From Pseudaquabacterium terrae (GTDB taxonomy: Bacteria; Pseudomonadota; Gammaproteobacteria; Burkholderiales; Burkholderiaceae_C), in NCBI RefSeq assembly GCF_013266755.1, contig NZ_JABRWJ010000002.1, positions 620,001-684,000 on the forward strand: a DNA stretch of 64,000 nt, given 5' to 3'. Made by a program: the position numbers and the translations under genes. How positions within the stretch are numbered: position 1 is the first letter of the stretch; each line of letters opens with the position of its first letter. The notes under the pieces are model-generated. The model had not been told where the DNA came from. It searched no databases and saw only the letters and a program-made list of their open reading frames with translations. This document shows, in pieces, positions 14,630 through 28,949 of this stretch.

Positions 14630-15865
14630 TCAGCCCGAAGCGCTGCGCAGCGCCAGATAAACCCACGTGATCGCCAGCGTCACCAAGGTCACCGGCACGC
14701 CGATGCGCGCATGGGCGCGCCAATCGATGGTCACGCCGCGCTGCGCCGCTGCGTCGACGACGATGATGTTGGCGATGCTGCCGACGATGAACAGGTTGCC
14801 GGCCAGCGTGCTGACCAGCGCCAGCGTCGCGCCGGCCAGTGGATGGTCGGCGCTCGGCAGCAGCAGCATCACCGCCGGCACGTTGGACACCAGGTTCGAC
14901 AGCACGAAGGTCGCGGCGAACAGCGGCCCCGGCTGATCCAGCGGCACGCCGGCGCCGGCCAGGTGCGCCATCAGCTGCGCCGGCAGCCCCGTCTTCTGCA
15001 GCGCGTGGTTGACGACGAAGAGCCCCATGAACAGCACCAGCAGCTCCCAGTCGACCAGCCCGAGCATGTGGCGCGAGTGCAGCTTGCGGCTCATCAGCAG
15101 CACGCCGGCACCGGTCAGTGCGATCACCTCGCGCGGCCACGACGTGAACAGGAAGCAGGCGACGATGACCGCGGCGACGGCCAGGCCCTTTGCGGTCTGC
15201 CACGGATCGAGCGCATCGCTGGTGGGTTGCACGACCTCCGCGGGCGCTGCGTCGACCCTGCGCGCCAGCCGCTCGCTGCAGCGCCAGGCGATCAAGGCCC
15301 AGGTGCAGCCGAGTCCCAGCAGCACCGGCACTGCCGCGTCGCGCAGGTAGCCGGCGAAGGGCAGCTTCAGCGTCTCGCCGATCAGCATGTTCTGCGGGTT
15401 GCCGATCAAGGTCGCCGCCGAGCCGATGTTCGACGCGCAGGCCAGCGCCAGCAAATAGGGCAGCGGGTCGAGCCGGCGCCGGCGGCAGGCATCGATCAGC
15501 ACCGGCGCGACGGCCAGGCAGACGATGTCGTTGCTGAACACCGCCGACAGCGCCGCGACCGTGACGATCAGCGCGCCCAGCAGCAGCGGGGCGCTCAGCG
15601 GCAGCTCGCCGAGCCGGCGCGTCACGCGGTCGTAGAAGCCGCCGAGCCGCATCTGCGCCGACACCACCATGAACGCGAACAGCAGGATCAGCGTCGGCAG
15701 GTGGATCGCGCGCGCGGCTTCCTCGAGGCTCAGTGCATCGATGCCGATCAGCGCGATCGCGCCCAGCAGCGCGATGCCGGTGCGGTCGAGTTGCAGGAAC
15801 GGCAGCCCGCCGAGGATCATGCCGAGGTAGACGGTGGCGAAGATGCCGACGATGGCTTCGGTCAT
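14630..15865 (-). CDS. SLC13/ArsB-type anion permease
   Basis: A 411-residue inner-membrane transporter with about ten hydrophobic segments. Two signature re-entrant regions are visible: AVFSNDIVCLAVAPVLIDAC near residue 110 and LACASNIGSAATLIGNPQNM near 140, and in the second half VLSNLVSNVPAVMLLLPSAD and VSTLAGNLFIVGSIANIIVV. These SNxx...GNPQN motifs are typical of the ion-transporter superfamily containing ArsB, NhaD and SLC13 carriers. Substrate (dicarboxylate, arsenite, sodium/proton exchange) is not determined; no ars genes are nearby. Confidence 0.85.
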   Translation of the reverse strand: MTEAIVGIFATVYLGMILGGLPFLQLDRTGIALLGAIALIGIDALSLEEAARAIHLPTLILLFAFMVVSAQMRLGGFYDRVTRRLGELPLSAPLLLGALIVTVAALSAVFSNDIVCLAVAPVLIDACRRRRLDPLPYLLALACASNIGSAATLIGNPQNMLIGETLKLPFAGYLRDAAVPVLLGLGCTWALIAWRCSERLARRVDAAPAEVVQPTSDALDPWQTAKGLAVAAVIVACFLFTSWPREVIALTGAGVLLMSRKLHSRHMLGLVDWELLVLFMGLFVVNHALQKTGLPAQLMAHLAGAGVPLDQPGPLFAATFVLSNLVSNVPAVMLLLPSADHPLAGATLALVSTLAGNLFIVGSIANIIVVDAAAQRGVTIDWRAHARIGVPVTLVTLAITWVYLALRSASG

Positions 15866-15883
15866 GCGGCTCGAGCGTCGTCC

Positions 15884-17542
15884 TCAGGGCTTGCGCAGGT
15901 CTTTCAGCAGCACGCTGAAGTCGAGCTGGGCGCGGCCGCCGGCGCGCCGGCGTTCGCCCAGCTCGTCGAGCAGCGCGTCGAGCTCGGCGTCGTCGGCGGC
16001 GCTGGACTCCGGCGCGCTCGCCGCGACCGGCGCCTCGACCAGCGGCGCATCGCCGCCCCAGGGACCTGCCAGCGCGCCGCCGGCCAGCGAGACGAAGCCG
16101 CCCAAGCGCACCTCCGGCTGGCCCTTGTGCGCCAGCAGCGGCACGACGCCGATGCCTTGCAGCGCGGCGACGTGGCGTTCCGTCAGCAGGCGTTCGGTGC
16201 AGGGCAGGGCGACCGCCTGGCCGTCCTCGTCGTAGTGGAAGAAGTAGGGCAGCTCGTCGAGGCCGTACTGCGCCAGCGGCGGGTGATGCGCGCCATGCTC
16301 GTTGACCTGCTGCGCCAGCAGCACCGCGGCCACCAGCGCCGGGTTGCCCCACAGCAGCGTCTGCAGCCCGGCGCGGGGGTCGAACTCCTCGAAGGCAAAG
16401 CGCGTGATCGGATCGGAGCGCTTGCCGTAGGGCGCGCGCAGCAGCACGCGCGGCGTGACCAGCGAGACGAAACGCGCCGCCGGCAGCGCGCGCAGCGCGG
16501 CCCAGGCCTCGGCGATGCGCGGATGCAGATCACCTGCGGCCGCGTCGATGCAATCGCGGCCGAGCCCGGCGATGAAGGGCGCATGCGCCGCAGCGGCGAT
16601 CTGTGCGGCGCGCCCCAGCAGCTCGGCCTGCGGCGGCGTCATCTCGAAGCCATAACAGCCGATCAGCGCGGAGAGTGCACCCTGGTGCGCATCGAGCGGC
16701 GGCTGCTCGACCAGCAGCTTGTACAGCGCGGTGTCTTCGAGGCGGTCGGTCGCGCTCAGGTCGGCGGCGAATTCCTCGGCGCTGATGTCGTAGGCCACCA
16801 GCTGCACCGCGTTGTCGGTCTCGATGCGGCGCACCGCGAAGTCCAGCGTGCGCCAGGCCGCTTCGAGGCATTGGAAATCGGGGTGGTGCAGCACGCGGCG
16901 CATCGCCTGCGTCAGCGCGCGGTCGACCGCGGCGGTCAGTGCCGGTGCATCGGGCGCGGCGGCCTCGACCAGGTGCGGCGCGACGATGCGCCTGAGCATT
17001 GCATCGAGCGGGCCGGGCGGCGCCGGCGGTGGCGCCTCGCGGCCGAGCAGCCGCGCGAAGTCGTTCATGCGGGCGTCGATCGGCAGCGTGTCGCCGCGGG
17101 CGGGCACGTTGGCATCGACGCCGCTGCTCGTCTCGGCGGCGGAGACGTCGCCCCACTGCCGCACCTCGGCCGCCGCGGCGGCGAAGGTCGACGGCTGCGC
17201 GAGCCGCTGGCGCAGGCTCACCAGGCCGTTGAACAGCGGCAGGCTGTCGTAGAGCGCATCGGGATGCAGGTCGTCGAGCGAACGGGGCTTGAGCTCGACC
17301 GTGTCGCCGGCGCCGTCGATCGGCAGCCGCAGCACGCTGCCGAAGCCGGCCAGCAGGCGGTCGAGCGTGTCGACGTCGAGCTTCAGCGGCTTCGTTGCGG
17401 CCAGTGCGTCGCCGCGGCGCAGCTCGCCGCGGTGGGCGCGGCCGGAAAAATCGCCGAGCAGCGCGATGCGAAAACGCCCGCCGCTGCGGCGCGGTGCCGG
17501 CCGGCCGGCCGAGAAGCGGCCGAAGTTGAAGCTGTGGCTCAT
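15884..17542 (-). CDS. TssB-TssC-like fused type VI sheath protein (orphan)
   Basis: A 552-residue protein that looks like the two subunits of the type VI secretion contractile sheath joined in one chain. Residues about 20-140 resemble TssB: RFRIALLGDFSGR, LDVDTLDRLLAGFGSVLRLP, then SLDDLHPDALYDSLPLFNGL and VSLRQRLAQPSTF. Residues about 180-490 resemble TssC: LTQAMRRVLHHPDFQCLEAA followed by WRTLDFAVRRIETDNAVQLV, then PYGKRSDPITRFAFEEF and LLWGNPALVAAVLLAQQ. The tail is acidic and ends in a charged helix. No other type VI gene is in the window. It lies 18 bp downstream-to-upstream of the permease on the same strand. The fusion reading is inference from motif order; a stand-alone sheath-like structure or a remote partner operon is possible. 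Confidence 0.75.
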   Translation of the reverse strand: MSHSFNFGRFSAGRPAPRRSGGRFRIALLGDFSGRAHRGELRRGDALAATKPLKLDVDTLDRLLAGFGSVLRLPIDGAGDTVELKPRSLDDLHPDALYDSLPLFNGLVSLRQRLAQPSTFAAAAAEVRQWGDVSAAETSSGVDANVPARGDTLPIDARMNDFARLLGREAPPPAPPGPLDAMLRRIVAPHLVEAAAPDAPALTAAVDRALTQAMRRVLHHPDFQCLEAAWRTLDFAVRRIETDNAVQLVAYDISAEEFAADLSATDRLEDTALYKLLVEQPPLDAHQGALSALIGCYGFEMTPPQAELLGRAAQIAAAAHAPFIAGLGRDCIDAAAGDLHPRIAEAWAALRALPAARFVSLVTPRVLLRAPYGKRSDPITRFAFEEFDPRAGLQTLLWGNPALVAAVLLAQQVNEHGAHHPPLAQYGLDELPYFFHYDEDGQAVALPCTERLLTERHVAALQGIGVVPLLAHKGQPEVRLGGFVSLAGGALAGPWGGDAPLVEAPVAASAPESSAADDAELDALLDELGERRRAGGRAQLDFSVLLKDLRKP

Positions 17543-17607
17543 GGTGGTCTCCCGGGGGGAATCGGGCGATCCTAGCCCTGTCGCGCGACGAGGTACAAAG
17601 GCCCCCC

Positions 17608-19130: not shown

Positions 19131-19964
19131 ATGTCCGCGCTCCAGCTTGTCGCTCCCTGTCCGGCGCTGCGCGATCATGTGCTGTGCTACGTCGCGCGGG
19201 ATGCCGCGGCGGCGCGCGCGGTGCCGGCCGAGGCGCAGTTCCCGGCGCACACGATCAGCGGCCTGGTGCTGCTGCATGGCGGACGCATTCACGCGCCGCA
19301 GCATGGCCGCGATTTCGCCGAGTGCACGCTGCTCGGCCTGCAGCCCAAGCCCTATCGCCTGATGTACGTGGATGGACCGCAGACGACGGCCGTGCTGTTT
19401 CGCGCCGGGCGCGCCGGCGAACTGCTTGGCGTGGCTGCCGCCGACATCGCGGCGCAGCTGCTCGATGCGCGCGTCGTGGTGCCGTCGCTGGCACTGCAGG
19501 TGTTGATGCACCGCTCGCGCGAGGCGACCACCGCTGCCGCGCGCATCACCGCGCTCGAGGCCTATCTGCTCGATCGCCTGGAGCGGCGCCCGCCACGGCC
19601 AGCGTGGGCCGAAGCGCTGCTCGCACTCGGGCCCGAGCTCGCGCTGTTGCCGCTGCCGGCGCTCGCCGAGCGCCTGGGCTGGAGCCCGCGCCAGCTGCAG
19701 CGCTGCTTCGGCGAGCTCTTCGGCGTGCCGCCGAAGACCTACCAGCGCCTGGCGCGCGGCCAGGCCGCATTGCGCGGCCTGCATGCCGATGCGGCGGCCT
19801 CGCTGCCGGCATTGGCGCAAGCGCTGGGTTTTGCCGACCATGCGCATCTGTCGCGCGAATTGCGCGACACCGCGGGCCATGCCCCGGCCACCTTGCGGCG
19901 TGGATTCGACCGTGGTCTGCCGGCATTGGCGCCCTTGTCGGCGCTGCTGCGCGCGGATCTGTGA
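19131..19964 (+). CDS. AraC-family transcriptional regulator
   Basis: A 277-residue regulator. The C-terminal AraC/XylS double helix-turn-helix is at about 165-255: LPLPALAERLGWSPRQLQRC, then FGELFGVPPKTYQRLARGQA and ALAQALGFADHAHLSRELRD. The N-terminal half (VAPCPALRDHVLCYVARDAA, FPAHTISGLVLLHGGRI, CTLLGLQPKPYRLMYVDG) is the sensor domain found in DUF6597-type AraC proteins. It is immediately upstream of, and in the same direction as, the peptide gene at 20108, making it the obvious candidate regulator of the following operon. Confidence 0.88.
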   Translation: MSALQLVAPCPALRDHVLCYVARDAAAARAVPAEAQFPAHTISGLVLLHGGRIHAPQHGRDFAECTLLGLQPKPYRLMYVDGPQTTAVLFRAGRAGELLGVAAADIAAQLLDARVVVPSLALQVLMHRSREATTAAARITALEAYLLDRLERRPPRPAWAEALLALGPELALLPLPALAERLGWSPRQLQRCFGELFGVPPKTYQRLARGQAALRGLHADAAASLPALAQALGFADHAHLSRELRDTAGHAPATLRRGFDRGLPALAPLSALLRADL

Positions 19965-20032
19965 TCTGCATCACCCGCGGCGGTTTGCATTGTTTCACCG
20001 CAGCTTCAATCGCACGATTTGAAGAATTCGGA

Positions 20033-20051
20033 CCGGCCTTTTCGCGGCCGG
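20033..20051 (+). other. GC hairpin in the leader of the peptide gene
   Basis: CCGGCC (20033-20038) and GGCCGG (20046-20051) form a perfect 6-bp stem with a 7-nt loop, 57 bp before the peptide start. It has no T-tract, so it is not a typical terminator. It may insulate the AraC gene from the peptide gene or stabilise the 5' leader. The rest of 19965-20107 is AT-richer than its surroundings and is presumed to hold the promoter, but I cannot fix the boxes. Confidence 0.4.
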
Positions 20052-20107
20052 CACCTACAAATGCGGTGCGGCAAACATCGTCGCGTCAACCAAAGCGAAA
20101 GCACACC

Positions 20108-20179
20108 ATGAAGTTCGACACCCTGAAGAACCTGGCCAACACCAAGGCTCCCACGATCCGTCCGCCGAAGCAGATCTGA
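20108..20179 (+). CDS. 23-residue peptide, candidate precursor or carrier peptide
   Basis: A 23-codon gene starting MKFDTLKNL and ending TIRPPKQI, then TGA. It is basic (four Lys, one Arg, one Asp), has no hydrophobic signal, and has a proline-containing C-terminal part (KAPTIRPPKQI). Support for its being real: it lies alone in an otherwise unused 299-bp gap, is followed 5 nt after the stop by a perfect-stem terminator, and heads an operon of tailoring-type enzymes. That layout (tiny gene, terminator, then enzymes) is typical of modified-peptide precursors such as PqqA-type genes, and the length equals PqqA. There is no clear Shine-Dalgarno, only a purine stretch (AAAGCGAAAG). No radical SAM or lanthipeptide-type enzyme is nearby. 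Too short for homology-based recognition by eye. Confidence 0.65.
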   Translation: MKFDTLKNLANTKAPTIRPPKQI

Positions 20180-20184
20180 TCGTG

Positions 20185-20227
20185 AAGGCGCCGGCCGCGT
20201 TTCTTGCGGTGCGGCCGGCGCCTTTTT
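20185..20227 (+). terminator. intrinsic terminator/attenuator after the peptide gene
   Basis: GGCGCCGGCCGC (20187-20198) pairs perfectly with GCGGCCGGCGCC (20211-20222) across a 12-nt loop, flanked by AA before and TTTTT (20223-20227) after. It is the clearest rho-independent terminator in the window. It separates the peptide gene from the downstream operon, so most transcripts should end here and partial read-through would supply the enzymes at lower level. Confidence 0.88.
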
Positions 20228-20263
20228 CCCTTTCCATTCATTGAATTGAATTCGAGCCATTCC

Positions 20264-22126
20264 ATGGACGTTCGCATCACCAATCTCTACGTCGACGAAT
20301 ATTCCTCATTCGTCTATGCCGCGGACGATCGCGGACTGGTCCGAAAACTCAAGCTGAATCTCGAATTGCTCGAGACCTCGCCGGCGCTCAAGCACGGCAG
20401 CTGCATCAGCGCCATCGGCGCCGGCGGCGATTACGTCTTCACCCGCGACATCCTCGGCAACCTGATGCAATGGGATGCCGCAACGCTGCAGCCGCGCGGC
20501 ATGGTCGCCACCGGCCAATACACGCTGGAATTCGCCGGCGAAACCGCGGCGCCGAATCCGTCGCAGGCGATGGCCTTCGACGGCGAGCGCATCTGGTGCT
20601 GCAACCCCTTCGGCGAACTGCAGGCCTGGCGCATCGGCAGCCTGGCCTTCGAACGCTCGCTGAGCCCCGACGGCGACGTGCTGCTCGACTCGGTCTGCTT
20701 CGACCGTGCCGGCAAGGTCTATGCGTCCGACGTCATCGGCGGCATCTGGCAGGCCGGCCCTGGCGACGAGCGCCTGAAGGTGCTGCATGCCGCCGAGACG
20801 CCGCTGGGCACCAGCCATTCGCTGGTGCACGACGCGCGCTGGGATCGCCTGTGGTGCAGCACCGACAACCACGGCGGCATCCTGATCGTCGGCCTCGACG
20901 GGGCGGTGAGCGAGCGCTTCGAGTTCACGCGCGACGACGTCGAGCAGATCGCCTTCACCGGCAGCGGCGCCGAGGCCTTCGTCGCCTGCTTCGACCACTA
21001 CATCTACCGCGTCGACAACCGCGAGGCGACGCCGCGCATCGTCGCGCGCTTCGGCCCGTTCAAGTTCCAGGTCAACCACGTGCGGGTCGGCCCGGAACGC
21101 ACGCTGTATGCGACGCTGGAATCCGGCGAGCTCTACGCGATCGATGCCGACAGCGGCGCGATCATGGCGCAGGCCTTCGGCACCGATGCGGTCTGGGGCA
21201 TCGACCCGGCCTCGGCGGAAGGCTTCTGTGCCGGCCTCGAGTCGGGCTCGCTGCTGTCGATCGGCGTGCAGCCGGGGCGGCATGGCGATGTGGCGCTGGC
21301 GCTGCACAAGAGCCCGGACCTGGGATTGGGCCGCGTGCGCCGCGTGTTGTCCGTCGAGGGAGGCGTCGCCGGCGGCGCGCTGGTCGGCATCAGCACCTCG
21401 GGCGCGGTGTTCAAGACCGACCGCGATGGCCGCGTCGAATGGACGCAAGCGGTCGGCGGCATCCTGCGCGACATCGTCATCGGGCCCGACGGCTCGAGCG
21501 TGATCGTCGCCAGCGAGGACGGCCACATCAGTGAGCTCGAGCTGCAGCGCGGTCGCCTGCTGCGCCGCCTGGCCTGCGCACGACCGGCCTGGTGCCTGGC
21601 GCTCGACAGCAGCGGCCGCCTGGTGGTCGGCGAACGCTCCCTCGGCGGCCTGGGCGCGGTGCGCGTGCTCGACGCGGGCGACTGGTCCGAGCTCGGCCGG
21701 CTCGAGCTCGAAGGAAATCCGAAGCGGCTGCGGCCGCTCGGGCCGGGGCGCGTGCTGGTCGTCGGCAACGGCGCGTTCCGCGCCCGCATGCTCGATACGC
21801 GCGCGGTGCAATGGGGCACCGAGTACCGCGAATGGGTGATGAACACCGTCGAGAACGGCATCACCTTCGGCAGCCGCGTCTACATCGTCACCTACGGCCA
21901 GCAGCTGCTGTCCTTCGATGCCGGCAGCGCCGAGCTCAAGAGCGTGCAGTTCAGCCCGGATTCGTTCCCGAAGGGCCTGGCGGTGATGCCGGGGGGCGCG
22001 CCCGATGAGGGTTATCTGCTGATGGGTGGCCGCGAGTTCCTGTCGGTCTACCGCATCGGTGACCAGATCGATCCGGCGTTGCTGAAGACGGTCTATCTCG
22101 CGCGCGATGCGCAGGGCATGCTGTGA
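20264..22126 (+). CDS. large beta-propeller protein of the peptide-linked operon
   Basis: A 620-residue cytoplasmic protein made of repeated beta-propeller blades without canonical WD dipeptides. Blade-like repeats recur along the chain: YVFTRDILGNLMQWDAATLQ, VYASDVIGGIWQAGPGD, AFVACFDHYIYRVDNREATP, LYATLESGELYAIDADSGAI, SVIVASEDGHISELELQRGR and VYIVTYGQQLLSFDAGSAEL. Length would suit two propellers of about seven blades. It is distinct from the WD40 protein encoded four genes later. There is no signal peptide, so it may act as a scaffold for the other operon enzymes or for the peptide; that is inference. Start is the ATG at 20264, 37 bp after the terminator. The stop overlaps the MFS gene start (GTGA). 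Confidence 0.8.
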   Translation: MDVRITNLYVDEYSSFVYAADDRGLVRKLKLNLELLETSPALKHGSCISAIGAGGDYVFTRDILGNLMQWDAATLQPRGMVATGQYTLEFAGETAAPNPSQAMAFDGERIWCCNPFGELQAWRIGSLAFERSLSPDGDVLLDSVCFDRAGKVYASDVIGGIWQAGPGDERLKVLHAAETPLGTSHSLVHDARWDRLWCSTDNHGGILIVGLDGAVSERFEFTRDDVEQIAFTGSGAEAFVACFDHYIYRVDNREATPRIVARFGPFKFQVNHVRVGPERTLYATLESGELYAIDADSGAIMAQAFGTDAVWGIDPASAEGFCAGLESGSLLSIGVQPGRHGDVALALHKSPDLGLGRVRRVLSVEGGVAGGALVGISTSGAVFKTDRDGRVEWTQAVGGILRDIVIGPDGSSVIVASEDGHISELELQRGRLLRRLACARPAWCLALDSSGRLVVGERSLGGLGAVRVLDAGDWSELGRLELEGNPKRLRPLGPGRVLVVGNGAFRARMLDTRAVQWGTEYREWVMNTVENGITFGSRVYIVTYGQQLLSFDAGSAELKSVQFSPDSFPKGLAVMPGGAPDEGYLLMGGREFLSVYRIGDQIDPALLKTVYLARDAQGML

Positions 22127-23427
22127 GCTCCGAAGCACCATCCGCCCGCCTGCCGGCGCAGTTCTACGCGTTCCAGTCGGGCATCGTGCTCGGCTACTTC
22201 GCGCTGCGCCTGGGCTCGTTCGCTGCGGCCTGGTGGTGCCTGGAGAGCACGCGCGATCCGCTGCAGCTGGCGGCGATCCTGGCGCTGGCGACCGGTTTCG
22301 ATCTGGTCGTCGGGCCGCTTGCGGCGCCGCTCGGCGATCGCTTCGGCGGCCGGCTGGTGCAGGTCACCTTCGTCGCGCAGATCGTCTGCTTCGCGCTGCT
22401 GGCGCTTGCAGCACGCGGATCCTTCGACGCCATCGTGCTCGCTGCGCTGCTGATCCCGGCGCAGTTCCTCGATGCGGCGCGTGATCCGGTCGCCGATGCC
22501 GCGCTGCCGCAATTGGTCGGCAACGCCAGCCTGACCGACGGCGTGCGCATCCGGCGCGCGCTGGGCACCGCCTCGCGCATCCTCGGACCGGCGGTCGGCG
22601 GCGCGGTCACGGCGCTGCTCGGTGCCAGCGCCACGTTCGTGCTGGCGGTCGTGGCGCTGGTCGCCGGCGCGCTGTTGTGCGCGACGACGCGGCTGCCCGG
22701 TGCGGCGGCGGCGATGAGCGCCGGCACGGCCACGCTCGGCACCTGGTGGCGCGACACGCTCGAGGGCCTGCGCAGCCTGCTGGCCATTCGCACCGAGCTG
22801 GCGATTGCGATCGGCTCGGCCTTCCTGACCGCCGCGGTGGCCTGCTTCGTCGCCATCGCCGTGCCGCAGCTCGCGCTGCAGACGCAGGGCGCCTGGGTCG
22901 CCGGCGTCGTCGATGCGGCGCTCGGCGCCGGTGTCGCGGTGGCCGCGCTGTTCGCGGTCAAGCCGTTGAATGCACGCTTCGGCGCCTGGCGCACGGTGCT
23001 CGGCGGCCTGGCCGCCGTGCCGCTGGCCTTCGCGCTGATGGCGATCGCGCCGCTGGCCGTCTGGCTGATGGTGCCGGCGGCCGCGGCGATCGGCTTCGCA
23101 CTCGTGCTGGTCGGCACCAACCTGTCGGCGCTGCGCCTGGGCGCCACGCCCGAGGCCTGGCGCACCCGCATCGTCGCCAATGCCACCTTCGTCTCGTCGC
23201 TGCTGGTGCCGCTGGGCAACTTGGGCGCCGGCTGGCTGGCCGAGCGCAGCGAGCCCGCGCTGCTGCTGGCCGGCTTCGCGGCCTGCACGCTGGTGCCGCT
23301 GCTCGCCATTCCCGCCGCGCCGCATCTGCGTGCCCTGCTCAATGCCGGCGAATCCGGCCAGCGCGCGGCCTACCTGAGCCTGTTCCCGGCCGCCTTTCGC
23401 GGCGCCGGCCCCCGCCCGTCCGTTTGA
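22123..23427 (+). CDS. MFS transporter (probable exporter)
   Basis: A 434-residue major facilitator with about twelve hydrophobic segments. The A-motif-like loop GPLAAPLGDRFGGRLVQVTF lies between helices 2 and 3 near residue 70. The frame starts with GTG at 22123 in a GTGA overlap with the propeller gene, so it is translationally coupled. It resembles drug-efflux-type MFS proteins (MFS_3-like). In the operon context it is the likely exporter of the product or the self-resistance function; substrate is inferred only. Confidence 0.85.
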   Translation: MSSEAPSARLPAQFYAFQSGIVLGYFALRLGSFAAAWWCLESTRDPLQLAAILALATGFDLVVGPLAAPLGDRFGGRLVQVTFVAQIVCFALLALAARGSFDAIVLAALLIPAQFLDAARDPVADAALPQLVGNASLTDGVRIRRALGTASRILGPAVGGAVTALLGASATFVLAVVALVAGALLCATTRLPGAAAAMSAGTATLGTWWRDTLEGLRSLLAIRTELAIAIGSAFLTAAVACFVAIAVPQLALQTQGAWVAGVVDAALGAGVAVAALFAVKPLNARFGAWRTVLGGLAAVPLAFALMAIAPLAVWLMVPAAAAIGFALVLVGTNLSALRLGATPEAWRTRIVANATFVSSLLVPLGNLGAGWLAERSEPALLLAGFAACTLVPLLAIPAAPHLRALLNAGESGQRAAYLSLFPAAFRGAGPRPSV

Positions 23428-23445
23428 CCCCGAAGGAGCCCCTCC

Positions 23446-24060
23446 GTGGAGACTTCCGATACCCGCATCATGATCCTCGCCGGCAGCCCGCGGCCCGGGT
23501 CGGAGTCCCTGCGCGTCGCGCAGGTGATGCAGCGATTCCTCGACGACCAGGGCGGCATCGCGCCGCAATTGCTCGACCTGGCGCAGCTCGACCTGCCGAA
23601 GTGGGAGGACGAGGCCGCCGATCACGAAACGCTGGCGCTGAACACGCTGCGCGAGGCCGCCGACTCAGCCGATGCGCTGGTGATCGTGGTGCCGGAATGG
23701 GGCGGCATGGCGCCGCCGGCGCTGAAAGCCGCGCTGCTCGCGCTGACCAACGGCGAAGTGGCGCACAAGCCGGTGCTGTTGATTGCCGTCTCGGCCGGCA
23801 TTGGCGGTTCGTACCCGATCGCCGAGCTGCGTGCCTCGTGCACGAAGAACGCACACCTGGTGTTCATCCCCGATCACCTGATCGTGCGCCATGTCGAGCA
23901 GCAGTTCCCGGCGCATCCCGGCGACAAGACCGCCGACCACCAGCGGCTCGAGCTGCGCGTGAAGAGCTCGCTCAGCCAATTGATCACCTACGCACGTGCG
24001 CTGGCCCCGGTTCGGCCGACGCTCGCGCGTGCACTGAAGGCCTATCCCTATGGTCATTGA
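23446..24060 (+). CDS. NAD(P)H-dependent FMN reductase-family flavoprotein
   Basis: A 204-residue flavodoxin-fold protein of the NADPH-dependent FMN reductase family. The FMN phosphate loop [16 protein letters not shown] lies at residues 13-28, and the isoalloxazine-contacting loop [20 protein letters not shown] near 86. GTG start at 23446 is preceded by a good Shine-Dalgarno (AAGGAG). It overlaps the GTP cyclohydrolase II gene by 11 bp. In the operon it could supply reduced flavin or carry out a redox step on the heterocycle. Confidence 0.85.
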
Positions 24061-24682
24061 TCTGCCCCCCGTCAGCGTGTCGCCGGCCATCAAGGCCAGC
24101 GCCGAGATCCCGCTCGCCGGTGGCGCGAGCGGCCGCTTCTACAGCTTCGACATCGGCGGCGCCGGCCGCGACGGCAAGGCGCCGGACCATGTCGCCGTGC
24201 GTTTCCCCGGCCCGTCGGTCGAGCCCGGCGGCGTGCCGCTGGTGCGCATCCATTCCGAATGCCTGACCGGCGACGTGTTCGCGTCGCTGCGCTGCGATTG
24301 CGGCCCGCAATTGCAGGAAAGCCTGGCGCTGTTCGGCGCGCAGGGTGGCTACTTGCTGTATTTGCGCCAGGAAGGGCGCGGCATCGGCCTGGTCGCCAAG
24401 CTGAAGGCCTACCAGCTGCAGATCGAGCAGGGGCTGGACACCTTCGAGGCCAACCGCGCGCTGGGCTTTCGCGACGACCACCGCGACTACGGCATCGCCG
24501 CGCGCATGTTGCAGGCGCTGCAGGTCGAGCGCGTGCGCCTGCTGACCAACAACCCCGACAAGGCCGCCGGCCTCGAGGAACACGGCATCGAGGTCGACGC
24601 CGTGCTGCCGACGCGCCGACACGAGAACCCGCACAACCACCGCTACCTGCACGCCAAGCGCGAGCAGGGCCATCGCCTGTAA
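24050..24682 (+). CDS. GTP cyclohydrolase II (RibA/ToxB-like)
   Basis: A 210-residue GTP cyclohydrolase II, which opens the imidazole ring of GTP to give formate, pyrophosphate and a diaminopyrimidine ribotide. The zinc site [17 protein letters not shown] (residues 70-86) has all three cysteines, and [20 protein letters not shown] contains the substrate/catalytic region seen in E. coli RibA. LLTNNPDK and the C-terminal [20 protein letters not shown] complete the domain. There is no fused RibB domain. Adjacency to a WD40 protein and an FGE-like protein mirrors toxB-toxC-toxD rather than a riboflavin operon, so a specialised pathway is more likely than vitamin supply. Confidence 0.93.
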
Positions 24683-24691
24683 GGAGCGTCC

Positions 24692-26452
24692 ATGAATTCG
24701 ATTCAATCCACTGCCGCAGGCAGCTTGGCGCATTTCGGTCCCATTGCCGGCATCGCCTGCAGCGCCGAGCACATCGCCACCGCCGGTTACGACAACCGCG
24801 TGATCCTGTGGGAGCGCGCGACGCAGCGGGCGCTGGCGATGGGGCTGCACGATCACCTGGTGAACAGCGTGGCGTTCTCGCCGGATGGCAAGCGCCTGGT
24901 CAGTGCCAGCAGCGACCACACCGCGCGCATCTGGGCCGTCCCCTCAATGCAGCTGATGACCGTCCTGAGCGGCCATGCCGACGATGTTGACACTGCCGTC
25001 TTCTCGCCGGACGGCAAACGCATCGCCACCTCGTCGCACGACCACACCGTGCGCACCTGGGACGCGATCACCGGCCAGCCGCTGGCCCTGATGCTCGGCC
25101 ACCAGGGCGACGTGCTCGCGCTGGCGTGGGACGACAACGGCAAGTCCCTCGTCTCCAGCAGCGACGACGGCACCGTGCGGCGCTGGTGCCCCGACAGCGC
25201 GGTCGAGATCGAACGCGTGCAGCTCGGTGGCGCGCAGAGTGATGCGCTGGCCGTGCTGGCCGACGGCCACATGGTCTGCGGCGACGACACCGGCACCTTG
25301 TACCTGGTCGGCCCGCGCGGCGTGCTGCAGCGCCAGGCGGCGCACATGGCCGGCATCAAGCACCTGAAAGCCGACGCGGCGCGGCAGCGCGTGCTGTGCC
25401 TGAGCTACGACGGCAGCTTCTCGGTCTGGCAGCTCGACGGCGGCGGCACGCGGCTCGATGAAGTCGCGCGCATTCCGATCCCGGCCATCGTCTGGCCACG
25501 CAGCTGCGCGCTGGCCGACGAGCACTCGGCCGTCTTCGGCAGTTTCGGCTCCACCTACGCCAGCGTCGACCTGCGCGACGGCCGCTGGGAGCTTTCGCGC
25601 ATCCGCCGCGACCGCAGCCTGAACGCCGTTTGCGCGGCGATGGACAGCACTTGGGACATCGGCGACGCCGGCATCCTGCGCCGCGACGGCGTCGCGGTGG
25701 CCGACCTCGGCACGCTGTGCAACTTCCTCGTCGCCGGCGGCCCGACGCTGTACGCGGGCGGCCAGTCCGGCGTGCTGTTCGATGCCGCGGCCGGCAAACC
25801 GCTGCACCGCCATGCGTCGCCGCTGAACTGTGCGGCAAGCTACCTGCACCAGGGCGAACGCCGGCTGGTGGTCGGCACCTACACCGGCGAGCTGCTGTTC
25901 TTCGTCCTGGGCGATGGGACGCTCACTTTGCTGGCCGGCATCCGCACGCACGAGAACGCGATCAAGGGTCTCGCGGTCGCGCATGGCCGCGTGTTCTCGT
26001 GCTGCGCCGACGGCGCGGTGGCGCTGAACGATGCCGCGGACTTCCAGCTGCTGCAACGCGTGCCCGGCGGCCACACGGCGATCGCCAACGGCTGCGTCGC
26101 GACGGCCGACGGCTACGCCAGCGTCGGCCGCGACTTCAAGCTGCGGCTGTGGCGGCGCGACCTGCAGCAGCGCTGCCTGAACACGCCGCACCGGCATTCG
26201 ATCCGCTGCATCGCGGCATCGGCCTCCGGCCGCTATCTGGCGACCGCCGGCTACCGCGGCATGGTCGCGATCTACGACCGCGTCGACGACAGCTGGCTGC
26301 CGACGCTGCGGCCATCGACCTTCGGCATCTCGTGCATCGTCGCCGACCCGGCCGGGGAGGGCTTCATCGCCAGCTCGTACGACGGCACGACGCACCGTAT
26401 CCCGGCGCCACGCACACCGGTGATGCCGCGCCCGGCGGAGAGCGTCGCGTGA
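24692..26452 (+). CDS. WD40-repeat protein (ToxC-like)
   Basis: A 586-residue WD40 protein with no signal peptide. Three strong repeats are in the N-terminal third: VNSVAFSPDGKRLVSASSDH then TARIW, VFSPDGKRIATSSHDHTVRT then W, and ALAWDDNGKSLVSSSDDGTV then RRW. Weaker blades continue to the end (IRCIAASASGRYLATAGYRG). It starts 9 bp after the GTP cyclohydrolase II gene. In toxoflavin producers a WD-repeat protein of unresolved function (ToxC) follows ToxB, which is the basis for the comparison. It may be a scaffold or an enzyme of unusual type. Confidence 0.87.
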   Translation: MNSIQSTAAGSLAHFGPIAGIACSAEHIATAGYDNRVILWERATQRALAMGLHDHLVNSVAFSPDGKRLVSASSDHTARIWAVPSMQLMTVLSGHADDVDTAVFSPDGKRIATSSHDHTVRTWDAITGQPLALMLGHQGDVLALAWDDNGKSLVSSSDDGTVRRWCPDSAVEIERVQLGGAQSDALAVLADGHMVCGDDTGTLYLVGPRGVLQRQAAHMAGIKHLKADAARQRVLCLSYDGSFSVWQLDGGGTRLDEVARIPIPAIVWPRSCALADEHSAVFGSFGSTYASVDLRDGRWELSRIRRDRSLNAVCAAMDSTWDIGDAGILRRDGVAVADLGTLCNFLVAGGPTLYAGGQSGVLFDAAAGKPLHRHASPLNCAASYLHQGERRLVVGTYTGELLFFVLGDGTLTLLAGIRTHENAIKGLAVAHGRVFSCCADGAVALNDAADFQLLQRVPGGHTAIANGCVATADGYASVGRDFKLRLWRRDLQQRCLNTPHRHSIRCIAASASGRYLATAGYRGMVAIYDRVDDSWLPTLRPSTFGISCIVADPAGEGFIASSYDGTTHRIPAPRTPVMPRPAESVA

Positions 26453-26529
26453 TGATCAGCCCCCAGCTCACTTCGTTCGCGGCCCCCGAGGGGCGCTCAG
26501 TGCCTTTCGGGCGGCCGGGCAGGCACTGA
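26452..26529. repeat. REP-like palindromic intergenic element inside the operon
   Basis: The only sizeable gap inside the operon (76 bp). It holds CCCCCGAGGGG (26484-26494) and an inverted pair GTGCCT (26500-26505)/AGGCAC (26521-26526), with the cores CACTTCGTTCGC and TTTCGGGCGGCC. From memory this resembles dispersed repeats in Burkholderiales (TCACTTCGTTCGC...CCCCCGAGGGG...CTTCGGGCGGCC), but no second copy is present in the window. The stretch also reads as a 25-codon ORF (26452-26529) coupled at both ends (TGATG). I regard the ORF as coincidental. Confidence 0.55.
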
Positions 26530-27896
26530 TGCCCGAGCGCCTCGATCCGCTCGGCACGATCGTCGACTACCACGCGGCGCTGGGCGCCGGCTGGCTGCGT
26601 GCCGGCGAGGCGCTGGAGCTGGCGTGCGCCAACGCGCAGGCGCCGGACGGCGAGGGTGCGCGGGTCTTCGCACGCCACGACGCCGACATCGCGCGCGCCA
26701 GCGCCGTGCAACTGCAGCGCAGCGGCGGCCGCCAGCTGCGCGGGCCGCTCGACCGCGTGATCGTCAGCATCAAGGACAACTTCGACATCGCGGGCCAGGT
26801 GACCAGCGCCGGCTCGCCGACGCGCGAGGGCGGCACGCCGGCGGCGCGCGACGCCGCCGCGGTGGCGCGGCTGCGCAGCGCCGGCGCGATCCTCGTCGGC
26901 CGCACGCGCATGTCGGAATTCGCCTATTCGGTGACCGGAACGCATCCGGACTATCCGCCGCCGCGCAACCCGTGGCAGCGCGCGATCGGCCGCATCCCGG
27001 GCGGCTCGACCTCCGGCGGCGCGGTGTCGGTCAGCGACCGCATGGCGCACATCGCGCTCGGTACCGACACCGGCGGCTCGCTGCGCGTGCCCGCGGCGCT
27101 GTGCGGGCTGGTCGGCTTCCGGCCCTCGCTCGGCCGCGTGCCCAGTGAAGGCCTGTTTCCGCTGTCGCCGGCCAGCGACACCATCGGCGCGATGGCCCGC
27201 GCCGTCGACGACTGCTGGCGCGTCGACAGCGTGGTCGCCGAACGGCCGCTGGCGCCGCGGCGCGATCGCGCGCCGCGCAGCTTCCATTTCGCGGTGCCCG
27301 ACGGCCTGTTCACCGCGCAGCTGGCACCGCCGGTGGCCGCGGCCTTCGAGCGCCTGCTGGCGGTGATCGGCCGCTCCGGCGCCTCGGTGCGCCGCCTGCC
27401 GATGCCGGTCTTCGACACGTTGGCCCCGCTGCAGGCCGATGGCGGCATCACCGCCGCCGAGGCGTGGCGCGCGCATGGCGACGGCGGCGCACTGCTGGCC
27501 TGCCGCGACCCGCTGGTGCGCGCCCGCATCCTGATGGGCGCGCGCACCGACGACTGGCGCTTGGCGCAGCTCAAGCGCGAGCGCGCAGCGCTGATGCGGC
27601 GCTTCGGCCGCGAGCTGCGCGGCTTCGACGCGCTGCTCGCACCGACGGTGCCGATCACCGCGCCGACGATCGCCGAAGCCGATGGCGCCGGACCCGCTGC
27701 GCAGCAGATCAACCAGCAGCTGCTGCGCAACACGGTGGCCATCACGCTGGTCGGCGGCTGCGCGATCTCACTGCCTTGTCACGCCGCCGGCAATGCGCCG
27801 GTCGGCGCCATGCTCGCCGCACCCGGCGGCCACGACGAGCGGCTCTTCGAGGCCGCGTTCTTCATCGAATCGCTGTTGCGTTTTGCCCAGGAGTGA
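26529..27896 (+). CDS. amidase-signature hydrolase
   Basis: A 455-residue amidase-signature enzyme. The Ser-cisSer-Lys triad is visible: lysine in VIVSIKDNFD (K82), the cis-serine region GGSTSGGAVSV (160-170), and the nucleophile in GTDTGGSLRVPAALCG (S184). Length is normal for the family, which hydrolyses or transfers carboxamides and acyl groups. Within the operon it could cleave an amide on the peptide or on a pathway intermediate; a peptidase-like role is inference. It lies between the WD40 and FGE-like genes, 3 bp before the latter. Confidence 0.9.
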   Translation: MPERLDPLGTIVDYHAALGAGWLRAGEALELACANAQAPDGEGARVFARHDADIARASAVQLQRSGGRQLRGPLDRVIVSIKDNFDIAGQVTSAGSPTREGGTPAARDAAAVARLRSAGAILVGRTRMSEFAYSVTGTHPDYPPPRNPWQRAIGRIPGGSTSGGAVSVSDRMAHIALGTDTGGSLRVPAALCGLVGFRPSLGRVPSEGLFPLSPASDTIGAMARAVDDCWRVDSVVAERPLAPRRDRAPRSFHFAVPDGLFTAQLAPPVAAAFERLLAVIGRSGASVRRLPMPVFDTLAPLQADGGITAAEAWRAHGDGGALLACRDPLVRARILMGARTDDWRLAQLKRERAALMRRFGRELRGFDALLAPTVPITAPTIAEADGAGPAAQQINQQLLRNTVAITLVGGCAISLPCHAAGNAPVGAMLAAPGGHDERLFEAAFFIESLLRFAQE

Positions 27897-27899
27897 AAA

Positions 27900-28949
27900 G
27901 TGACCATCGCCCCCTCCGCCCTTGTCAAGCCGGCCGGCCATGGCCACTTCTTCTGGCCGACGCTGCCGCAGGCGCTGCCGCTCACCTTGAGTGAAAGTGA
28001 GCTGCTCGGCCTGCCGGCGCAGCACGTGCCCTCGCGCCTGTCGACGCCGCAGCCCGCGCTGATGCGGCGGCTGATGCGCGGGGACGAGGTCGACTGGCTC
28101 GAGCGCCTGGCCGACACCGACGCCCCGCTGGCCGAACGCTGGCTCGCCGGGCAATTGCTGGCGCTCGCCGGCGACCCGCGGCTGAAGCCACTGGCGCCGC
28201 CGATGGTCGATGTGGCCGGCGGCGAATTCACGCTCGGCCTGGAGCCGCAACGGCTCGATGCGGTGATGGACCGGCTCGCCGGACTCGGCCTCGACCGCGC
28301 GTGGATCGCAAAGGAGTGCCCGGCCTACCGCGTTCGCATTCCGAGCTTCCGCATCGGGCGCTATCCGGTCACCAACCATGAATACCGCGTCTTCCTGCTC
28401 GCCACCGGCCACCCAGTGCTGCCGACGAGCTGGGAGCTTGGCCGCTATCCGCTGGAGCGCGCGAACCACCCAGTGCATTCGGTCGACGTCGCCAGCGCCG
28501 AGGCCTACACCGCATGGCTGTCCGCCAGCACCGGCCGCCGCTTCCGGCTGCCGACCGAAGCCGAATGGGAGCTCGCCGCCGGTGGCCCGGCGCAGCGTGA
28601 ATATCCGTGGGGCGAGACCTTCGAGCCCGACCGCTGCAACACCGTCGAATGCGGGCTGCTGATCACCTCGCCGGTCGGCATGTTTCCGCGCGGCGCCGCC
28701 CGCTGCGGCGCGCAGGACATGGCCGGCAACGTCGAGGAACTGGTGGCCACCGACTATGCGCCTTATCCCGGCGGGCAGTGGATCGACGATCACCTGGTGC
28801 AATTGAACGGCCGCTACCGCGTCGCGCGCGGCGGCAGCTTCGCCCGCTTTCGCGATCTCGCGCGCTGCAAGCGGCGGCACGGGATTCACCGGACGACGCG
28901 GGTGTACGTGGCGGGGTTTCGGTTGGCGGAGGAGTTGGCGCGCGCCTGA
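27900..28949 (+). CDS. formylglycine-generating-enzyme-like protein (SUMF1 domain, ToxD-like)
   Basis: A 349-residue protein with an N-terminal alpha-helical part (about 1-100) and a SUMF1/FGE-sulfatase domain (about 100-345). Typical elements are FRIGRYPVTNHEYRVFLLAT, RRFRLPTEAEWELAAGG, CGAQDMAGNVEELVATDYAP and RVARGGSFARFRDLARCKRR ending VAGFRLA. True formylglycine-generating enzymes carry two copper-binding cysteines five residues apart near the end; by eye only the second (in LARC) is present, so classical sulfatase activation is unlikely. Relatives include EgtB/OvoA-type oxidases and ToxD. GTG start at 27900 follows the amidase stop by 3 bp. Confidence 0.87.
   Translation: MTIAPSALVKPAGHGHFFWPTLPQALPLTLSESELLGLPAQHVPSRLSTPQPALMRRLMRGDEVDWLERLADTDAPLAERWLAGQLLALAGDPRLKPLAPPMVDVAGGEFTLGLEPQRLDAVMDRLAGLGLDRAWIAKECPAYRVRIPSFRIGRYPVTNHEYRVFLLATGHPVLPTSWELGRYPLERANHPVHSVDVASAEAYTAWLSASTGRRFRLPTEAEWELAAGGPAQREYPWGETFEPDRCNTVECGLLITSPVGMFPRGAARCGAQDMAGNVEELVATDYAPYPGGQWIDDHLVQLNGRYRVARGGSFARFRDLARCKRRHGIHRTTRVYVAGFRLAEELARA

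Follow-up and report, generated by a model that had tools for sequence, protein, structure and literature searches.

What would a putative ribosomal peptide of 23 residues do at the head of an operon that otherwise resembles those for toxoflavin-like heterocycles? The question is raised by a locus of the soil bacterium Pseudaquabacterium terrae (genome of 8.04 Mb in 56 contigs), lying in a 64,000-nucleotide stretch analysed here as a whole and called the window. At this locus, a 23-codon open reading frame (ORF) encoding the candidate precursor MKFDTLKNLANTKAPTIRPPKQI (20108..20179, +) is followed by a long terminator-like hairpin with a T-rich tail (20184..20225, +), then by the gene of a large beta-propeller protein (20264..22126, +), and further downstream by genes for a GTP cyclohydrolase II (GTPCH II), a WD40 protein and an FGE-like protein. 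We see an even chance that the operon is a rare variant of the ToxB/C/D clusters, whose enzymes process a very small ribosomal peptide together with a GTP-derived heterocycle, and no description of such a variant was found in the literature searched. Somewhat more tentatively, it may represent a new class of ribosomal-peptide natural products, where a ToxC/ToxD-type pair, along with a propeller of its own, would couple a peptide of 13–29 residues to a GTP-derived pyrimidine and the product would then be exported. With the same reserve, the product of this class could be a peptide conjugate or a trimmed heterocycle, and the pathways of ribosomally synthesized and post-translationally modified peptides (RiPPs) and of azapteridines would meet in it.

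A first-pass annotation, made from the window alone, had suggested looking for a short ORF upstream of the propeller in other genomes, and such ORFs do recur in further lineages. Homologues of the propeller were identified in Aquabacterium humicola RJY3 (locus L034), in genome G032 of the same family (L035), in genome G115 of the same phylum (L074), and on two plasmids, pLDW-31 of Halobacillus litoralis (L039) and a plasmid of Streptomyces sp. NBC_00316 (L038), yielding, with the window, six propeller loci in five lineages. In five of the six, a Cys-free basic ORF of 13–29 codons is followed by a strong hairpin and then by the propeller. These ORFs start 118–190 bases ahead of the propeller starts and encode, apart from the window peptide, MKFDTLKNLAKTKAPTIRPPKSI in A. 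humicola, MLIKKQNLAAKQFTEKKVYVPPVDGTGNN in G032 (L035:4973), the 17-mer MKKATKKPVRRVVNVEQ in Halobacillus (L039:8843-8896) and MKKPIRRNVRNNK in Streptomyces (L038:11824); their net charge is +3 to +6, the G032 peptide having just +3. The sixth locus, G115, has a 111-codon ORF instead (L074:11443-11778, –), with no match in NCBIfam. Recurrence of the same arrangement in distant bacteria suggests that the peptide is a working part of the system, perhaps the raw material of a compound.

The stem-loop between the ORF and the propeller comprises 13–18 pairs in all five short-ORF loci (18 in the window), with minimum free energy z-scores from –3.2 to –4.7 against mononucleotide shuffles (–4.3 in the window). 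A T-rich stretch is located behind or inside the 3' side of the hairpin in the window and in G032, and no T tract follows it in A. humicola, Halobacillus and Streptomyces. Scanning of the 19900-20400 region of the window yielded two terminator-like sites on the plus strand versus 0.7 expected, and no sigma-70-like promoter; the Rfam scan produced a single match, far under its cut-off.

The association of these elements with the propeller was assessed at the 99 gene starts preceded by 100 or more free bases (loci L038, L039, L040, L042, L078, L079, and L080), the elements being a Shine–Dalgarno (SD) run of at least 6, an ATG ORF of 10–40 codons and a perfect stem of at least 10 pairs, with thresholds chosen after the propeller loci had been seen. 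In these annotated plasmid loci, whose gene tables are incomplete and from which genes cut at the locus ends were left out, the three elements occur together at both propeller starts and at none of the 97 other starts. The window and A. humicola fall below the SD threshold, and the A. humicola stem is also imperfect because of a bulge. Likewise, the combination is found at none of the nine ToxB/C/D starts in four propeller-less loci, where the starts in L036 and L041 are match starts rather than annotated ones, and L040 and L042 are also part of the 99-start set.

At the level of peptide sequence, conservation is narrower. A. humicola retains all nine genes in the same order, with 72–91% protein identity, and its peptide coincides with that of the window at 21 of 23 residues, the reading frame being kept. 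The motif KKP[VI]RR is common to the peptides of Halobacillus and Streptomyces, their alignment score being reached by 16 of 2000 composition shuffles; of the ten pairs compared, with A. humicola left out, each of the other nine has a score reached by at least 169 of 2000 shuffles. Hence, the single conserved peptide expected from the first-pass annotation did not emerge, likeness beyond chance being limited to the A. humicola and the Halobacillus–Streptomyces pairs: position and architecture are conserved across phyla, and sequence within two pairs only.

GTPCH II, the WD40 protein and the FGE-like protein constitute a ToxB/C/D-type module, as had been proposed initially; the designation follows from a direct test for ToxD and from the accompanying genes for the other two. 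The FGE-like protein (27900..28949, +; FGE-sulfatase 1.5e-42) matches the solved ToxD structure 7spq with E 9.9e-93 in the PDB search, this ToxD chain being the sole tox/psd sequence used in the comparison. No FGE active-site Cys pair was seen by eye at the alignment stretch where the motif of the human enzyme would be expected. In GTPCH II (24050..24682, +; GTP_cyclohydro2 1.3e-50) the motif CxTGD...C[DE]CG, whose residues we take to be zinc ligands, is intact and present in all ten aligned rows; a second GTPCH II match is found on a different contig of the host genome. The WD40 protein (24692..26452, +; WD40 4.6e-40) is 41–46% identical to the WD40 proteins of the four propeller-less ToxB/C/D loci. 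Homologues of all three accompany the propeller at each of the six loci, in Streptomyces at a distance of about 8 kb, past a transposase.

The operon thus shares with the toxoflavin (tox) and pseudoiodinine (psd) clusters the genes for GTPCH II, a WD40 protein and an FGE-like protein, these being also the annotations of psdD, psdE, and psdC (PMC9911603). What sets it apart is the short peptide ORF, the additional propeller and the genes for an FMN reductase and an amidase, together with the lack of the methyltransferase and RibD-type genes that tox and psd carry; the absence of ToxA and ToxE counterparts, already pointed out in the first-pass annotation, holds in our scan of the operon proteins. 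For pseudoiodinine, a route modelled on that of toxoflavin has been proposed: a diaminopyrimidine product arises through GTPCH II and a RibD-type step, and its coupling to glycine, with formation of the N–N bond, is assigned to PsdE and/or PsdC; loss of psdG reduces pseudoiodinine only in part (all as described in PMC9911603). The latter fact, together with five RibD_C matches in the host genome, none of them within the operon, indicates that the operon may dispense with a dedicated RibD-type gene.

In layout only, the operon also resembles that for pyrroloquinoline quinone (PQQ), where the peptide gene comes first as well. The pqqA peptide has 22–24 residues and heads an operon that turns peptide residues into a redox heterocycle. 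A single promoter is placed ahead of pqqA in Gluconobacter (PMC8102297), and in P. brassicacearum the pqqA transcript is at 12.77 versus 6.86 for pqqB on the scale of that paper (PMC6722718). Scans of the operon proteins against Pfam and NCBIfam gave no PqqB–E family (among the best 25 matches for the WD40 protein and the amidase). As for the MNIO (DUF692, MbnB/TglH/ChrH) RiPP families, a member is present in the Halobacillus relative and absent from the window operon proteins; it is encoded directly after the propeller, which itself follows the 17-mer, and scores under every NCBIfam cut-off among the matches listed. A further difference from these families is that the Halobacillus 17-mer has no Cys. 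A literature search combining GTP cyclohydrolase with RiPP terms gave no paper, and passages of PMC6722718 treat riboflavin genes and PqqA separately.

The scheme that we envisage begins with the first operon gene, which would yield a very short ribosomal peptide, probably in excess, as the hairpin that follows would stop many transcripts. GTPCH II would open GTP to give a diaminopyrimidine, and the ToxC/ToxD-type pair, with the flavoprotein helping, would perform an oxidative coupling as proposed for toxoflavin-like pathways. The extra propeller may hold the peptide or act on it, the simplest possibility being that it presents the peptide to the coupling chemistry. One or more peptide residues would then replace the normally coupled amino acid or join its product, and trimming enzymes, such as the amidase of the operon, and the exporter of the major facilitator superfamily (MFS) would complete the product. 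Translation of the peptide, its role as a substrate, the limiting of read-through by the hairpin and every chemical step are inferred.

Several observations weigh against this scheme. The window peptide resembles none of the G032, Halobacillus, Streptomyces and G115 peptides beyond chance, and peptides of 13–17 residues are short for RiPP precursors. The peptide ORFs of the window and A. humicola have weak SD sequences, runs of 3 being matched by 401 and 254 of 1000 shuffles, respectively; the corresponding run is 5 in G032 (61 of 1000), and runs of 7 in Halobacillus and Streptomyces are matched by 0 and 11 of 1000. Net charge alone is weak evidence, Cys-free ORFs with a charge of at least +4 comprising 26/245, 17/147, 18/230, and 11/89 of the short ORFs in four loci. 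The window and A. humicola peptide ORFs differ by one synonymous and three non-synonymous substitutions, too few for an informative ratio of non-synonymous to synonymous substitution rates (dN/dS), and the dS of the peptide ORF is 0.064 compared to 0.28–0.62 for the neighboring genes; this low value implies conservation of nucleotides and not of the protein alone, and a cis-acting leader would look alike. Finally, no MNIO was found among the Aquabacterium operon proteins in the Pfam scan, and the Halobacillus cluster contains, downstream of FGE, a second unlisted strong-SD ORF of 24 codons, MYNIPDIETLESSDLKVVNDDLGF (L039:2254-2328, –), which could be the MNIO substrate there rather than the 17-mer; the MNIO argument is weakened accordingly.

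The low dS leads to the main rival explanation, unlikely in our view, that the ORF is a leader-peptide attenuator, with ribosomes stalling on the basic peptide in response to the product or an amino-acid signal and thereby allowing transcription to continue beyond the hairpin and reach the genes of the propeller and the exporter. The succession of ORF, strong hairpin and gene is the classic layout of such devices, and the conservation at the nucleotide level in A. humicola agrees with it. In G032, moreover, the ORF pairs with the 5' arm of the hairpin so that only one of 300 shuffles is as good (none of 300 with another choice of the arm); however, the pairing is matched by 151, 58, 153, and 280 of 300 shuffled ORFs in the window, A. 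humicola, Halobacillus, and Streptomyces, respectively, and this test thus supports attenuation at one locus of five. The three hairpins without a T tract behind them and the 111-codon ORF in the place of the short one in G115 also fit an attenuator poorly.

The wide divergence of the peptides among lineages would be expected if the product were a pyrimidine or azapteridine made independently of the peptide, the short ORF encoding a small protein such as an accessory subunit, a regulator or an immunity peptide. ToxB/C/D-type clusters do yield free heterocycles, pseudoiodinine among them (PMC9911603), but the short ORF tracks the propeller and not the ToxB/C/D module as such, and we regard this explanation as less probable still than attenuation. 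Least probable of all, and very unlikely in our view, is that the short ORFs are no genes and arose by chance: ATG ORFs of 12–30 codons are indeed common, numbering 245 in the window, and the weak SD sequences of the window and A. humicola point the same way, but chance would account neither for the co-occurrence of SD, ORF and hairpin at the two annotated propeller genes and nowhere in the background, nor for SD runs that shuffling rarely or never reproduces, nor for the frame kept in A. humicola.

Formation of the N–N bond by ToxC- and ToxD-type proteins, as well as the identity of their substrates, has the status of a proposal (PMC9911603), and a family of clusters in which this module is joined by a ribosomal peptide and an additional propeller offers a handle on this chemistry. 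If the peptide is the coupling partner, substrate recognition could be approached with short synthetic peptides. For genome mining, a short ORF, a hairpin and a propeller close to ToxB/C/D genes would then provide a hook; such ORFs are easily overlooked, as seen from the Halobacillus and Streptomyces plasmid gene tables (PLSDB, incomplete), where no gene is listed at the short-ORF position.

The propeller, a marker of this cluster type, is composed of PQQ_2/BamB-like repeats and, in a profile comparison, matches the WD40/ToxC set distantly; AlphaFold2 run on a two-row alignment gave a mean predicted local distance difference test score (pLDDT) of 37. Its distribution is sparse in the genome samples searched, which overlap one another. 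At E ≤ 1e-12, it was found only in the source genome and G115 among 398 genomes (at E ≤ 0.001, in 79 of them, the 77 beyond these two being weak and partial matches), in the source genome alone among 399 and among 312 genomes, in the source genome, G003 (same genus) and G032 among 349, in G115 alone among 61 and among 332, and in G032 alone among 18. A. humicola was the sole match in a genome-contig scan covering close relatives only, and the plasmid collection contained the propeller in two of 72,556 records; coverage of Actinomycetota and Bacillota is that of this collection and one genome-contig scan. The viral contigs searched gave no match, nor did the plasmids when queried with the G115 propeller.

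In the tree of the concatenated module proteins, the window, A. humicola, Streptomyces and Halobacillus group together (support 0.965), with G115 next (0.749), and G032 groups with the propeller-less L041 (0.981). This topology is not reproduced by the GCH2 and FGE trees taken singly; given that and the placement of G032, the propeller loci do not form one clean clade.

The genes of the operon and their junctions are as listed in the first-pass annotation, with coordinates, spacings and Pfam assignments all verified. Upstream of the peptide lies an AraC-type regulator (19131..19964, +; HTH_18 1.9e-15 in Pfam), whose same-place orthologue in A. humicola is 72% identical. The propeller gene overlaps by 4 bp that of the predicted MFS exporter (22123..23427, +; MFS_1 3.1e-8, right at the cut-off), followed after 18 bp by an NADPH-dependent FMN reductase/azoreductase-family flavoprotein (23446..24060, +; FMN_red 6.5e-24), with FMN-dependent quinone and azo reductases as its best PDB matches. 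The GTPCH II gene overlaps the latter by 11 bp, the WD40 gene starts 9 bp further, and an amidase-signature amidase (26529..27896, +; Amidase 4.5e-75) is located 76 bp after WD40 and 3 bp before the FGE-like gene. PDB matches of the amidase include peptide amidase 1m21 and ClbL, and among the relatives compared only A. humicola has a homologue. Outside the operon, the window encodes, about 13 kb away, one of the five RibD_C matches of the genome (41777-42421, +), which nothing ties to the operon, and a 954-codon ORF with no match in Pfam (14711-17575, +).

The accessory genes vary among the lineages. In Halobacillus, the cluster also contains a 257-residue protein without assignment, an MFS transporter, a pyridoxal phosphate (PLP)-fold enzyme, an FMN reductase and an aldo/keto reductase; the genes past the module in Streptomyces encode an aminotransferase V and a flavin reductase as well as two C–N hydrolases. 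The MFS gene is third after the propeller in the former and immediately after it in the latter. Neighbors in G032 are an FMN reductase, two O-methyltransferase-type proteins, a glyoxalase-like protein and an ABC transporter, and in G115 an FMN reductase, a methyltransferase and an MFS transporter, so that methyltransferases occur in these two relatives, and a transporter and a flavin reductase in all five lineages (FMN_red in four, Flavin_Reduct in Streptomyces). The RiPP-like logic suggested earlier is supported in part, by the MNIO-family enzyme of Halobacillus and by the amide or C–N hydrolase genes of Aquabacterium and Streptomyces.

Several ToxB/C/D-type clusters were encountered besides the propeller loci. 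The one in L036 (genome G091), in which no propeller was matched, has HD/YfbR-like and glyoxalase-like proteins, and another module is carried by plasmid p1 of Streptomyces sp. BHT-5-2 (L041), a record without a gene table. A plasmid of Azospirillum thermophilum (L040) bears a tox-like cluster with methyltransferase, FGE, WD40 and RibD genes, where the GTPCH II stretch, in the gap between FGE and WD40, is absent from the gene table and matched only partly. In two Agrobacterium plasmids (L042, L043), the propeller-less module is found with a VOC protein and an MFS transporter, and is adjoined by LuxR-type and N-acyl homoserine lactone (AHL)-synthase genes.

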